Part shown: positions 2,550 to 6,019 of the stretch, piece after piece
Position numbering within the stretch: position 1 is the stretch's first letter
Layout: each line of letters opens with the position of its first letter
Made by a program: the position numbers and the translations under genes
NCBI GenBank assembly: GCA_030698575.1
Contig: JAUYMQ010000643.1
Location: 1-6,646, forward strand
DNA: 6,646 bases
Origin: Deltaproteobacteria bacterium
GTDB taxonomy: Bacteria > JAUYMQ01
Reading direction: 5' to 3'
Notes under the pieces: model-generated
The model's input: only the letters and a program-made list of their open reading frames with translations
Told to the model about the DNA's origin: nothing
The model's database searches: none

Positions 2550-2585
2550 TGTCATTGCGAGGAGCGAAGCGACGAAGCAATCCCC
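2550..2585 (+). repeat. Dispersed palindromic repeat, unit 1
   Basis: A 36-base unit starting TGTCATTGCGAGG and ending CGAAGCAATCCCC. The terminal ATTGC and GCAAT pair, and the GCGAAGCGAC centre supplies a short imperfect inner stem. The same ends recur at 2643-2684 (inverted) and 2696-2772. I recall this sequence class as a widespread REP-like element of GC-rich environmental bacteria. Position between convergent genes would allow a transcript-end or mRNA-stability role; that is inference. Confidence 0.8.
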
Positions 2586-2642
2586 CTGGCCAACGCTCCC
2601 GTCACAATCCCTGCCAGGTAGAGCACCGGTGCCGAGCGCGAA

Positions 2643-2684
2643 GGGGATTGCTTCGGCACCCCTGCGGGGTGCCTCGCAAAGACA
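2643..2684 (-). repeat. Dispersed palindromic repeat, unit 2 (inverted)
   Basis: On the minus strand this reads TGTCTTTGCGAGG ... CGAAGCAATCCCC, so it is unit 1 in reverse orientation with a different middle. The centre is a perfect 8-base stem, GGCACCCC (2655-2662) and GGGGTGCC (2666-2673), around a 3-base loop. The shared ends with an unrelated but still palindromic core show that the ends are conserved in sequence while the core is conserved only as a hairpin. Confidence 0.8.
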
Positions 2685-2695
2685 AAGGCGTGCAA

Positions 2696-2772
2696 GTCAT
2701 TGCGAGGCCCGAGGTCCCACGCGTAGCGTGGGCCGAGAGAATCTCCAAGATGCAGCGACGAAGCAATCCCCC
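2696..2772 (+). repeat. Dispersed palindromic repeat, unit 3 (long form)
   Basis: Starts GTCATTGCGAGG and ends GCGACGAAGCAATCCCC, matching unit 1 at both ends, but is about twice as long. The core holds a perfect hairpin, CCCACGC (2716-2722) and GCGTGGG (2726-2732) with a GTA loop, followed by GAGAATCTCCAAGATGCA. It ends ten bases before the stop codon (2782-2784) of the minus-strand DsbA-like gene. Confidence 0.75.
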
Positions 2773-2781
2773 CCGCGCTCG

Positions 2782-4152
2782 CTACTCCGAGCCTTCCAGT
2801 CGCCGACTGATCTCCTGCTCGACGCGCCACAGGCGGTCCTGGCCCCAGGTGTGATAGTCGGTCTTGCCGGCGCCGCCGATGATCCTGAAGCTCGGCACGC
2901 CCCACAGCCCCATCTCAAAAAGTGTTTTCCGGTTCTCCTCCAGCTCCTCGCGCCACCCTTCCCGATCGAGATGCTCGAGGGCTTCGGTCCAGGAGAGGCC
3001 CGCCCGCTCGACGATCCGCCGCAGGCCCGCGTCGGTGCCTGTTTCGATCCCCTCGGCGAAGGCCGATCGCGCAAAGGATTGCAGGAGCTCCGCTGCGCGC
3101 CCCCGCTCACGCGCCCAGGCGAAGAGCGAGAAGGCGCGCTCGATGGGGCGCCCCAGGGGATCCGCGATGCGCCCGAAGGGGACGCAGGCGTCCTCGGCCT
3201 CGCGCTTCGTGTCGAGCACGATGTAGATCTGCTTCGCGCGCGGCACCGGCAAACCGCGCATGACCATGGGGAGAACCGGCCGGATCACCAGCTCGATCGG
3301 ATAGCGGCGCGGCAATGCGAAGACCCGCTCCATCGAGATGGCCGTGTAGGGGCTCCGGAGCGAAGGGTAGAATTCCAGCGTCACCCGTCGATCGGGCAGC
3401 TCCGGTTCGACCCCGGGGCGGCCCGCGTGGCGCAAGTCCAGCGTGACGTGAGGCGCGCTCGTCAGATCGGGGCGGGAGACGATCGGATCGGTTACAGCGC
3501 CGGCACGATGCGCGCCGAGCGCGCGCAGGCGGCGCTCGAGGTGCCAGAGGCGGTCGACCCCCCAGTACCACTCGCCGCCGTAGTAGAACATCGCGCCGAG
3601 GTAATGGCCGAGCCGCGCGCGAAGCGCGCTCCCGGCTGCGACCGCCGCCTCTGTCGCCCCGGCGTCGGCCGGCGCGAAATCTTTGCTGAGCGTCTTGATC
3701 GAATCCCGTTCGCCCCGCCAGAGCGCCCTTCCCACAAGGGGCGCGGCGTCGGCGAAGGTTCCCGCCGCGACGGCGCCCTGGAGCATCCCAGCGGCCAGCG
3801 CGACCTCCCCAGGCGCGGGCGCTTCGCTTCGCGCCGGAAACTCGAGCCCGTAGCCCGGCGCCACGTCGGCCGCGTCCTCGCGCGACAGCGCTTCGAGGCG
3901 CGCTCTTTCCGGCGCTGCGTCGTCGGGAGGTGGTCCCGCCAGACAAGGCTCGAGGACGACGTCGTAGCGGTCGAGGAGGGGGCGGAGCGCCTGGGCCGCC
4001 AGGTAGCTGTAGGGGTCGTCAACCTGGTGGAAGTACAGGACGCGATGCGGCTCCCGCCGGAGCAGGCGGCGCTGCTCGGCGATCCATCGCCTCGCCGCGC
4101 GCGTGCGCGGGCTGGTCAGAGCCTGGGTGGCGTAGGGAGCGACCCTGCTCAT
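2782..4152 (-). CDS. Tandem DsbA/HCCA-isomerase-like thioredoxin-fold protein
   Basis: A 456-residue protein with two DsbA-like (PF01323-type, GST-kappa/2-hydroxychromene-2-carboxylate isomerase) domains at about 37-212 and 256-453. Domain 2 is canonical in outline: 'FYPSLRSPYTAI' (261-272) with SPY in place of CxxC, cis-proline loop 'GVPSF' (418-422) and terminal 'WGQDRLW' (436-442). Domain 1 repeats the plan with 'DDPYSYL' (45-51) and 'WGVDRLW' (197-203), but the cis-proline loop has become 'LGAMF' (185-189). Neither domain has a CxxC, so thiol oxidase activity is unlikely; a glutathione-dependent isomerase or transferase-like role is possible. There is no signal peptide or membrane segment, so it is probably cytoplasmic. 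The ATG at 4152 lacks its own clear Shine-Dalgarno and overlaps the stop of a 17-codon frame beginning at 4202. Product naming is at family level only. Confidence 0.88.
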   Translation of the reverse strand: MSRVAPYATQALTSPRTRAARRWIAEQRRLLRREPHRVLYFHQVDDPYSYLAAQALRPLLDRYDVVLEPCLAGPPPDDAAPERARLEALSREDAADVAPGYGLEFPARSEAPAPGEVALAAGMLQGAVAAGTFADAAPLVGRALWRGERDSIKTLSKDFAPADAGATEAAVAAGSALRARLGHYLGAMFYYGGEWYWGVDRLWHLERRLRALGAHRAGAVTDPIVSRPDLTSAPHVTLDLRHAGRPGVEPELPDRRVTLEFYPSLRSPYTAISMERVFALPRRYPIELVIRPVLPMVMRGLPVPRAKQIYIVLDTKREAEDACVPFGRIADPLGRPIERAFSLFAWARERGRAAELLQSFARSAFAEGIETGTDAGLRRIVERAGLSWTEALEHLDREGWREELEENRKTLFEMGLWGVPSFRIIGGAGKTDYHTWGQDRLWRVEQEISRRLEGSE

Positions 4153-4211: not shown

Positions 4212-4250
4212 AAATAAGACGAGCCCGCCAGGGATCCCCCGACGGGCTCG
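4212..4250 (-). terminator. Intrinsic terminator-like hairpin after tRNA-Glu
   Basis: On the minus strand CGAGCCCG (4250-4243) pairs perfectly with CGGGCTCG (4227-4220) across a 15-base loop, followed at once by the T-rich run TCTTATTT (4219-4212). It sits 30 bases after the 3' end of tRNA-Glu, where the tRNA transcript should end. The T-run directly abuts the Shine-Dalgarno of the frame at 4202, so the downstream gene needs read-through or a promoter in or near the hairpin. Confidence 0.65.
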
Positions 4251-4280
4251 CGCTGCGAGGGCAGGCTCGCGGGCTCTAGA

Positions 4281-4355
4281 TGGTGGTCCCTACGGGAATC
4301 GAACCCGTGTTACCGACGTGAGAGGCCGGTGTCCTAACCGCTAGACGAAGGGACC
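4281..4355 (-). tRNA. tRNA-Glu (anticodon CTC)
   Basis: A 75-base cloverleaf can be folded by eye. The acceptor GGTCCCT pairs with AGGGACC, with discriminator A and an encoded CCA at 4283-4281. The D arm is GTC/GAC with a 10-base loop. The anticodon stem CCGGC/GTCGG (one G-T pair) carries loop CTCTCAC, so the anticodon is CTC (4322-4320), reading GAG. The T arm ACGGG/CCCGT has loop TTCGATT. It lies 29 bases downstream of tRNA-Gln and before a terminator-like hairpin, so the two tRNAs are probably one transcript. Confidence 0.97.
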
Positions 4356-4384
4356 GTAACGGCGCGTGCGGTGCGTAGAATTCT

Positions 4385-4458
4385 TGGTTGGGGGACTAGG
4401 ATTCGAACCTAGGTTACCGGGGCCAGAACCCGGCGTCCTGCCGCTAGACGATCCCCCA
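4385..4458 (-). tRNA. tRNA-Gln (anticodon CTG)
   Basis: A 74-base cloverleaf. The acceptor TGGGGGA pairs with TCCCCCA, with discriminator A and an encoded CCA at 4387-4385. The D arm is GTC/GAC with a 9-base loop, the anticodon stem CCGGG/CCCGG has loop TTCTGGC (anticodon CTG, reading CAG), and the T arm is CTAGG/CCTAG with loop TTCGAAT. The U1-A72 first pair and a D loop one base shorter than that of the adjacent tRNA-Glu are features associated with recognition by the GatCAB amidotransferase. A near-consensus promoter lies just upstream. Confidence 0.97.
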
Positions 4459-4469
4459 GCAGAGCGGCA

Positions 4470-4498
4470 TTTATAGCAACGCCCGCCCCGCCTGGCAA
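4470..4498 (-). promoter_or_regulatory. Sigma-70-type promoter for the tRNA-Gln/tRNA-Glu pair
   Basis: On the minus strand TTGCCA (4498-4493) and TATAAA (4475-4470) are separated by exactly 17 bases; each matches the consensus hexamer at five of six positions. Initiation about seven bases after the -10 would leave only a few bases of leader before the tRNA-Gln 5' end at 4458. The placement fits a tRNA operon that can be transcribed independently of gltX. Confidence 0.72.
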
Positions 4499-4503
4499 CC
4501 ATG

Positions 4504-4530
4504 GGCGAAAAGGGGGACTGTCCCTTTGCC
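4504..4530 (-). terminator. Hairpin downstream of gltX, possible terminator or dispersed repeat
   Basis: On the minus strand AAAGGG (4527-4522) pairs with CCCTTT (4514-4509) around a 7-base loop, extended by GGC/GCC after a small bulge; TTTT follows the C run. It starts 14 bases after the gltX stop. Its GGGACAGTCCC-type core resembles a short dispersed repeat that I recall from environmental genomes, so it may be a mobile palindrome acting as a weak terminator. Confidence 0.45.
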
Positions 4531-4543
4531 AATGCGCCGGTGG

Positions 4544-6019
4544 CTACTCTGACTTCGTTTTCCCGGCCGCGCGGACATGCTCGAGGGCCCGGCGGATGCG
4601 GCTAAGCGTCTTCTCCCGGCCCATGAGCGCGATGACGTCGAAGATTCCCGGGCTCACCTTCTTTCCGACGAGCGCCGCGCGAATGGGCTGCGCCACCTGC
4701 CCGAGCTTCATGCCGTACTGTTTGGCGATTTCGCGCAGAACCGGCTCCATCGCCGGGGGGCGGGTGTCGGTCATTCCGGAGATCCTCGCCGCCGCCTCCG
4801 CGAGCGGGCCGGTGATCTCCTCGGTGAGCATTCTCTCCGCGGCCGGTTCGTACGTGATCTCGTCCGCGAGGTAGGGCGCGAGGCTCTCGGCCATCTCGAC
4901 GAGCGTGCGGCTGCGCTCCTTGTGGGCATCGACCGCGCGCTCGAGCCACTTCTCGTCACGCCCTTCCGGGCTGCCAATGCGGGGAACGCCTGTCGCTTCC
5001 AGAAAGGGGCGGACGAGCGCGGCCATCTCGGCAACAGGCATTTCGCGGAGATGGTGGGCGTTCAGCCAGAGCAGCTTCTCGGGATTGAAGATCGCAGGGC
5101 TTTTCCCGACGTCCCCGAGCCGGAACTTCTCGACGAGCTCTTCCCGCGTGAAGACCTCCTGGTCGCCGGCCGACCAACCGAGCCGCGCCAGGTAGTTGTT
5201 CATGGCCGCGGGGAGATACCCCTGCTCACGGTAGGACTGGATGCTCGTGGCCCCGTGCCGTTTCGAGAGCCGCCCCTTGTCGAGACCGTGGATGAGCGGG
5301 AGATGCGCGAAGTGGGGGAGGGGAGAATCCATCGCCTGGAGGAGGAGGATCTGCTTGAAGGTGTTCGGGATGTGATCGTCGCCCCGGATGACATGGGTAA
5401 TCGCCATCTCCGCGTCATCCACCGTCACGGAGAGATAGAAGATAGGCGTTCCATCCGTTCTTTGAATGACGAAGTCATCGATTTCCGCATTCCGTTTGGT
5501 CTGCGGCCCCTTGACCAGATCCTCGAATCGCGTCTCGCCTTCCGTTTCGGTCCGGAACCGGACCGCCGCCGGAGCGCCCGACGGGACGTCCTTCCGATCG
5601 CGGCATCGCCCGTCGTAGCCGGGGGGGCGTCCGTCCTTCTTGGCTTCCTCCCGGCGCTGCTTCAGCTCCTCCGGCGTGCAGACGCATCGGTAGGCGCGCC
5701 CACGTCCGAGGAGATCCTCCACTGCCGCGCGGTAGTGGTCCATCCTGCGCGACTGGTAGACAGGCCCCTCGTCCCAGTCCAGGCCGAGCCACGCGAGTCC
5801 ATCGACGATTCCGGCGGCGGAATCCTCGGTCGACCGGGACAGATCGGTATCCTCGATCCGGAGCACGAAGACGCCCCCGTTGTGGCGGGCGAAGATATGG
5901 TTGAAGAGCGCCGTCCGGGCGCTCCCCAGGTGCAGGCTTCCCGTTGGACTCGGAGCGAACCGGACGCGGACCTTCTCAGCCCCGTTCTTTTCTGGCCCAG
6001 CCCCGTTTTTTTCTGGCAA
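4544..6019 (-). CDS. gltX: Glutamyl-tRNA synthetase (class Ic)
   Basis: A 491-residue enzyme that charges tRNA with glutamate in the cytoplasm; length is normal for bacterial GluRS. The HIGH-type motif is 'SPTGSLHLGSAR' (24-35), and the KMSKS-type loop is 'KGRLSKRHG' (248-256). C112, C114, Y135 and C139 have the 2/23/27 spacing of the E. coli GluRS zinc ligands (Cys98, Cys100, Tyr121, Cys125). The RNA-reaching 'DDHIPNTFKQ' (214-223) and a helical C-terminal anticodon-binding region are present. The only plausible start is TTG at 6019, preceded by a purine-rich GAGGGGGG; an in-frame stop lies 15 bases upstream. The first 14 codons include a near-perfect 21-base tandem repeat that adds residues before the conserved core. 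The downstream genes are tRNA-Gln and tRNA-Glu, which suggests a non-discriminating enzyme charging both. That is inference, since discrimination cannot be read reliably from the sequence by eye. Confidence 0.97.
   Translation of the reverse strand: MPEKNGAGPEKNGAEKVRVRFAPSPTGSLHLGSARTALFNHIFARHNGGVFVLRIEDTDLSRSTEDSAAGIVDGLAWLGLDWDEGPVYQSRRMDHYRAAVEDLLGRGRAYRCVCTPEELKQRREEAKKDGRPPGYDGRCRDRKDVPSGAPAAVRFRTETEGETRFEDLVKGPQTKRNAEIDDFVIQRTDGTPIFYLSVTVDDAEMAITHVIRGDDHIPNTFKQILLLQAMDSPLPHFAHLPLIHGLDKGRLSKRHGATSIQSYREQGYLPAAMNNYLARLGWSAGDQEVFTREELVEKFRLGDVGKSPAIFNPEKLLWLNAHHLREMPVAEMAALVRPFLEATGVPRIGSPEGRDEKWLERAVDAHKERSRTLVEMAESLAPYLADEITYEPAAERMLTEEITGPLAEAAARISGMTDTRPPAMEPVLREIAKQYGMKLGQVAQPIRAALVGKKVSPGIFDVIALMGREKTLSRIRRALEHVRAAGKTKSE
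5977..6017 (-). repeat. 21-base tandem duplication at the gltX N-terminus
   Basis: Two copies of a 20-base sequence (5977-5996 and 5998-6017) differ at one base and have a period of 21, encoding the repeated peptide PEKNGA(G/E). Because the period is a multiple of three the frame is kept. It lies directly after the TTG start codon and upstream of the conserved catalytic core. Confidence 0.85.

Follow-up and report, generated by a model that had tools for sequence, protein, structure and literature searches.

The gltX locus and its features

The window, meaning the whole stretch of 6,646 nucleotides under analysis, is one entire contig (C573) of a 4.13-Mb deltaproteobacterial draft assembly comprising 653 contigs (91.6% complete, 4.6% contamination). 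On its minus strand, gltX is followed by tRNA-Gln(CUG), tRNA-Glu(CUC) and a strong intrinsic terminator, with gaps of 85 bp between gltX and the tRNA-Gln gene and of 29 bp between the two tRNA genes (Table 1). The initial annotation of this DNA, which was made from the sequence alone, had reported this same-strand grouping, and both tRNAs are called by ARAGORN and by Rfam RF00005. Its further observations of a U1-A72 pair in tRNA-Gln, of a D loop one nucleotide shorter than that of tRNA-Glu, and of a long D-arm stretch common to both tRNAs (UCGUCUAGCGG..AGGAC.CCGG) were likewise borne out; the acceptor pair and D-loop length of tRNA-Glu were taken from its own sequence and fold.

Table 1. Features of the window, with positions counted from its first nucleotide
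Feature	Positions	Strand	Description
gltX, glutamyl-tRNA synthetase	4544..6019	minus	491 codons, TTG start; TIGR00464, PF00749, PF19269
Promoter-like site TTGCCA-N17-TATAAA	4470..4498	minus	ends 11 bp before tRNA-Gln; putative promoter of the tRNA pair
tRNA-Gln(CUG)	4385..4458	minus	encoded CCA; U1-A72, A73, 7-nt D loop, U11-A24, U13.G22, A46, no base 47; ARAGORN and Rfam RF00005
tRNA-Glu(CUC)	4281..4355	minus	encoded CCA; G1-C72, 8-nt D loop; ARAGORN and Rfam RF00005
Intrinsic terminator 3' of tRNA-Glu	4214..4251	minus	15-pair stem, 3-nt loop, then CTTATTT; z-score -4.9
Tandem 21-bp repeat (PEKNGAGPEKNGAEK)	5977-6017		N-terminal extension of GluRS, right after the TTG start
Intergenic repeat	2551-2783		direct and inverted copies of GTCATTGCGAGG..AGCGACGAAGCAATCCCCC, resembling a dispersed palindromic repeat

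Glutamyl-tRNA synthetase and the charging pathway

The product of the gltX open reading frame matches the bacterial GluRS equivalog TIGR00464 over the full length with 509 bits (cut-off 290), and it carries both the catalytic domain and the bacterial anticodon-binding domain that define membership in the bacterial GluRS family. In a profile search of the assembly, gltX itself is the one PF00749 protein. The glnS model finds gltX alone, and weakly (1.3e-18); neither a GlnRS fragment nor a second GluRS (GluRS2) was detected in the 91.6% complete assembly. The gatCAB genes are complete, with gatC (841-1056), gatA (1146-2534) and the start of gatB (from 3770) on contig C224 and the remainder of gatB, which is split by a contig break, resuming at C373:3. 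An NAD-binding reductase-like gene (PF07993; C224:2592-3746, L144) lies between gatA and gatB. Because a genome search for AsnRS yielded sub-threshold model matches and none above the cut-off, GatCAB probably serves Asn as well as Gln.

Genomes with one GluRS, no GlnRS and gatCAB form the 1|-|+ class, the major bacterial group, predicted to use a non-discriminating GluRS (PMC3927822). The source genome resembles this class in having one GluRS, no detected GlnRS or GluRS2, and gatCAB, and no difference in gene content emerged where this was tested. Given complete gatCAB and no GlnRS found in its assembly, the source genome most likely has a non-discriminating GluRS, and very probably makes Gln-tRNA by the indirect route. 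The single GluRS would put glutamate on both tRNA-Glu and tRNA-Gln, and GatCAB would then turn Glu-tRNA-Gln into Gln-tRNA-Gln. The initial annotation had pointed to this pathway and to glnS and gatCAB as the genes by which to judge it, and this part of its interpretation is probably right and also ordinary.

The absence of GlnRS is not certain, because the assembly is incomplete: tRNAs for Glu(UUC), Trp and Phe are missing among those typed in the draft, and a tRNA-Glu(UUC) must exist in this genome. A discriminating GluRS working beside an unassembled GlnRS would fit the approximately 8% of the genome that is missing, the 123 of 290 sampled genomes that have GlnRS above the cut-off, and the Arg that the window enzyme carries at a site tied to discrimination in Thermus. 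We consider this alternative very unlikely, given that the assembly holds no fragment of a GlnRS gene, that gatCAB is complete, and that Arg proves to be the rule at this site in GlnRS-lacking genomes as well.

Residues were numbered by alignment to the Thermus thermophilus GluRS, whose sequence agrees with PDB 1j09 from end to end; Arg369 of the window GluRS corresponds to its Arg358, and Arg447 to its Arg435. Among 159 aligned GluRS rows, including a few second GluRS copies, Arg occupies the Arg358 site in 49 of 56 rows from GlnRS-containing genomes and in 83 of 103 from GlnRS-lacking genomes. A residue other than Arg had been proposed as the mark of a non-discriminating GluRS, with Arg counting against that assignment. 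The window enzyme has Arg and so formally falls on the refuting side, but the residue is uninformative in this sample and is not valid as a defining feature; we therefore rejected it as a discriminator. Changing the equivalent residue of Helicobacter pylori GluRS1 likewise had no effect (PMC3927822).

Identity features of the tRNAs

The proposal that the synthetase lies beside exactly its two RNA substrates is too strong. A tRNA-Gln(UUG) gene is located elsewhere in the source genome (C241), and since no second GluRS was found, the window GluRS must charge both the CUG and the UUG isoacceptors. A second tRNA-Gln(CUG) of another type (D arm GGUGUAACUGGCAACAC) is present near tRNA-Ala(CGC) at C231:5630 (L030), and could reflect transfer or contamination; tRNAs like it are the gltX-linked ones in genomes G038, G220 and G182. 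An additional ARAGORN call of tRNA-Glu(CUC) on C376 was judged to be a mistyped tRNA-Leu of 88 nt with a long variable arm.

The linked tRNA-Gln(CUG) has the two features taken as signs of a GatCAB substrate, namely U1-A72 and no extra D-loop base. However, U1-A72 is general to tRNA-Gln, being present in 79 of the 80 compared whatever the GlnRS status of the genome, and it is a determinant both for amidotransferases (PMC9976931) and for GlnRS (PMC3927822). We consequently do not retain this base-pair as a sign of GatCAB recognition, as the initial annotation had read it.

What makes the D arm of tRNA-Gln(CUG) resemble that of tRNA-Glu is an augmented D helix (U11-A24, U13.G22) and the lack of base 47, which are major determinants for GluRS (PMC9976931). 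Acidithiobacillus ferrooxidans GluRS1 charges only tRNAs with these features (PMC9976931), and it charges tRNA-Gln(CUG) and not tRNA-Gln(UUG) (PMC3927822). The source genome is similar in that both features, the augmented D helix and the missing base 47, are found in its linked tRNA-Gln(CUG) and not in its tRNA-Gln(UUG). In A. ferrooxidans, however, a second GluRS serves tRNA-Gln(UUG), and because none was found here, the source GluRS must accept the UUG isoacceptor too, unlike its A. ferrooxidans counterpart. The D arm of the linked tRNA-Gln(CUG) carries features by which GluRS recognises its tRNAs.

Across genomes, an augmented D helix without base 47 is carried by 36 of 58 tRNA-Gln(CUG) versus 4 of 22 tRNA-Gln(UUG) (p 9e-4, uncorrected for kinship), and its frequency is about equal in the two GlnRS classes. 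Where both isoacceptors could be read (19 genomes), it occurs in the CUG tRNA alone in nine and in the UUG tRNA alone in none. Among tRNA-Gln(CUG), 20 of 33 linked and 16 of 25 unlinked genes have it; it therefore goes with the isoacceptor and not with gene order, and was rejected as a mark of linkage.

The common D arm and the adjacency of the two genes might also be explained if the linked tRNA-Gln(CUG) had arisen by tandem duplication and remoulding of the adjacent tRNA-Glu(CUC). Only one anticodon base separates CUC from CUG, and in the source genome the tRNA-Gln(CUG) body is indeed closer to tRNA-Glu(CUC) (43/59) than to tRNA-Gln(UUG) (37/58). This hint is not repeated in most other linked genomes: in five of the seven compared, the body is closer to tRNA-Gln(UUG), as in G028 (48/58 versus 38/59). 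The D arm itself is shared by unlinked CUG tRNAs, and the acceptor stem is of the Gln type. These findings make remoulding most improbable, and the data lean towards membership of the linked gene in the tRNA-Gln clade.

Recurrence of the linkage in other genomes

Linkage was surveyed in approximately 160 genomes, mostly from different families and with one or two gltX loci each, plus 80 named loci. Counts refer to the 158 genomes in which the sequence extends 200 bp or more past gltX, and to tRNA genes on the same strand within 1 kb 3' of it. Because genomes were ranked for sampling by how closely their GluRS resembles that of the window, these frequencies do not apply to bacteria at large; the relatives compared share only the domain with the source genome. 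Genomes were scored for GlnRS from tabulated matches, with a partial gene taken as presence.

A tRNA-Gln(CUG) gene was found downstream of gltX in 28 of the 158 genomes (within 150 bp in 22 of them), and tRNA-Glu(CUC) accompanies it in 11 of the 28. In all, tRNA-Glu(CUC) occurs 12 times in this interval, whereas the remaining tRNA species add up to three occurrences (one Ser, one Ala and one Arg). With 28 and 12 occurrences set against three, the linkage of gltX with these tRNAs is not due to chance. Orientation and order are constant, with Gln preceding Glu wherever both are present, and no UUG or UUC isoacceptor lies within 1 kb. Conservation of the gene order in relatives, proposed as a check by the initial annotation, is thus borne out among far relatives.

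The grouping had also been read as the mark of a non-discriminating GluRS, and this reading is not supported. Linkage is as common in genomes with GlnRS (13/58) as in those without (15/100; Fisher p 0.28), independent pairs on the GluRS tree give a median p of 1, and binning by G+C content reveals no consistent excess of linkage with or without GlnRS. A correlation of linkage with the lack of GlnRS was therefore rejected.

The closest blocks are those of Nitrospirae and Deltaproteobacteria (L067, L084, L097, L101 and L129), which have the same order, strand and isoacceptors, with tRNA-Gln located 26-128 bp past gltX. They differ from the window in that both tRNAs are present only in L129. GlnRS is found in the genomes of two of the linked Nitrospirae (L084 and L101), as well as in a linked Syntrophaceae genome (L094, tRNA-Glu only), and none is shown in the two linked Nitrospirae L067 and L097. 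In the deltaproteobacterium L129, a fragment of GlnRS lies at the edge of a contig.

Two other arrangements were observed around gltX. In six genomes (L205, L233, L254, L259, L266 and L293), all of which have GlnRS, a tRNA-Ser gene (UGA, GCU or, once, CGA) sits just upstream on the same strand, and in two of them tRNA-Gln(CUG) lies downstream as well. In many GlnRS-containing genomes, glnS adjoins gltX or lies within approximately 1 kb of it (G199, G094, G242, G012, G057, G039, G051, G132, G182, G260 and G175).

Transcription of the tRNA pair

The promoter-like site before tRNA-Gln matches the consensus at 10 of 12 positions, a score that 200 shuffles of the upstream 80 bp never reached. A stricter scan, in which the second hexamer has to end in T, omits it. 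No terminator was found between gltX and tRNA-Gln in a scan of the window. A transcript with its own promoter and terminator probably yields the two tRNAs, and read-through from gltX may add to it.

Comparable promoter-like sites precede tRNA-Gln in G088, G095, G140, G218, G219 and G255. In 7 of 33 linked loci, tRNA-Gln begins 1-9 bp past the gltX stop codon with no promoter-like site better than shuffles, so that read-through is the likely source of the tRNA in those seven. As both modes of transcription occur with linkage, dosage coupling becomes less likely in general. The initial annotation had suggested co-inheritance or dosage coupling. In the window the tRNA pair has a promoter-like site of its own, so that neither strict dosage coupling nor coupling through one transcript is supported in the source genome.

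A broader form of this idea holds that one transcript keeps GluRS and its tRNA substrates in proportion and that the genes stay together for this reason. The seven loci with likely read-through and the constant orientation and order argue for it. Nevertheless, the promoter-like sites in the window and several other loci, the location of the UUG and UUC isoacceptors outside the group, the lack of linkage in most genomes and its frequent changes of state on the GluRS tree lead us to regard functional coupling as unlikely.

We consider it likely that our preferred explanation holds as a whole, combining a non-discriminating GluRS with GatCAB, recognition through the D arm, and a tRNA pair with its own promoter and terminator. 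The incomplete assembly, the Arg at the Arg358-type site, and a tRNA-Gln(UUG) that lacks the augmented D helix although this GluRS must charge it speak against this explanation.

Persistence of the linkage

On a FastTree tree of GluRS, the distribution of linkage takes 23 changes, versus 27-33 in 200 shuffles. Linkage thus appears to be inherited to some degree, yet often gained or lost. One reading is that it is a relic of an old bacterial arrangement that predates the spread of GlnRS and has been kept, without present function, in scattered lineages. Distant families share the order, the strand and the isoacceptors whether or not they have GlnRS, which is consistent with this reading, as is the greater than chance clustering on the tree. 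However, 23 is a large number of changes even so, an identical pattern would arise if the block had been assembled repeatedly or transferred as a unit, and a fast tree cannot separate gain from loss. We find the relic reading plausible, while stopping just short of leaning towards it. It would explain why the genes adjoin, and is compatible with the charging pathway and separate tRNA transcription preferred above.

A further step would be that the ancient linkage is kept even where GlnRS is present, CUG being the tRNA-Gln best recognised by GluRS, such that tRNA-Gln(CUG) would still be glutamylated to some extent in those genomes; we regard this extension as unlikely.

No description of the linkage between gltX and tRNA-Gln or tRNA-Glu was found in the open-access literature; it may be known from subscription papers, which lay outside the search. 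The pathway itself is textbook knowledge. What deserves to be retained is the recurrence, in distant families and independently of GlnRS, of a synthetase gene linked to one isoacceptor of each of its two substrates, a recurrence restricted to CUG and CUC. The linked genomes constitute a defined set in which to ask whether the arrangement is a relic of a state before GlnRS, and whether GluRS competes with GlnRS for tRNA-Gln(CUG).
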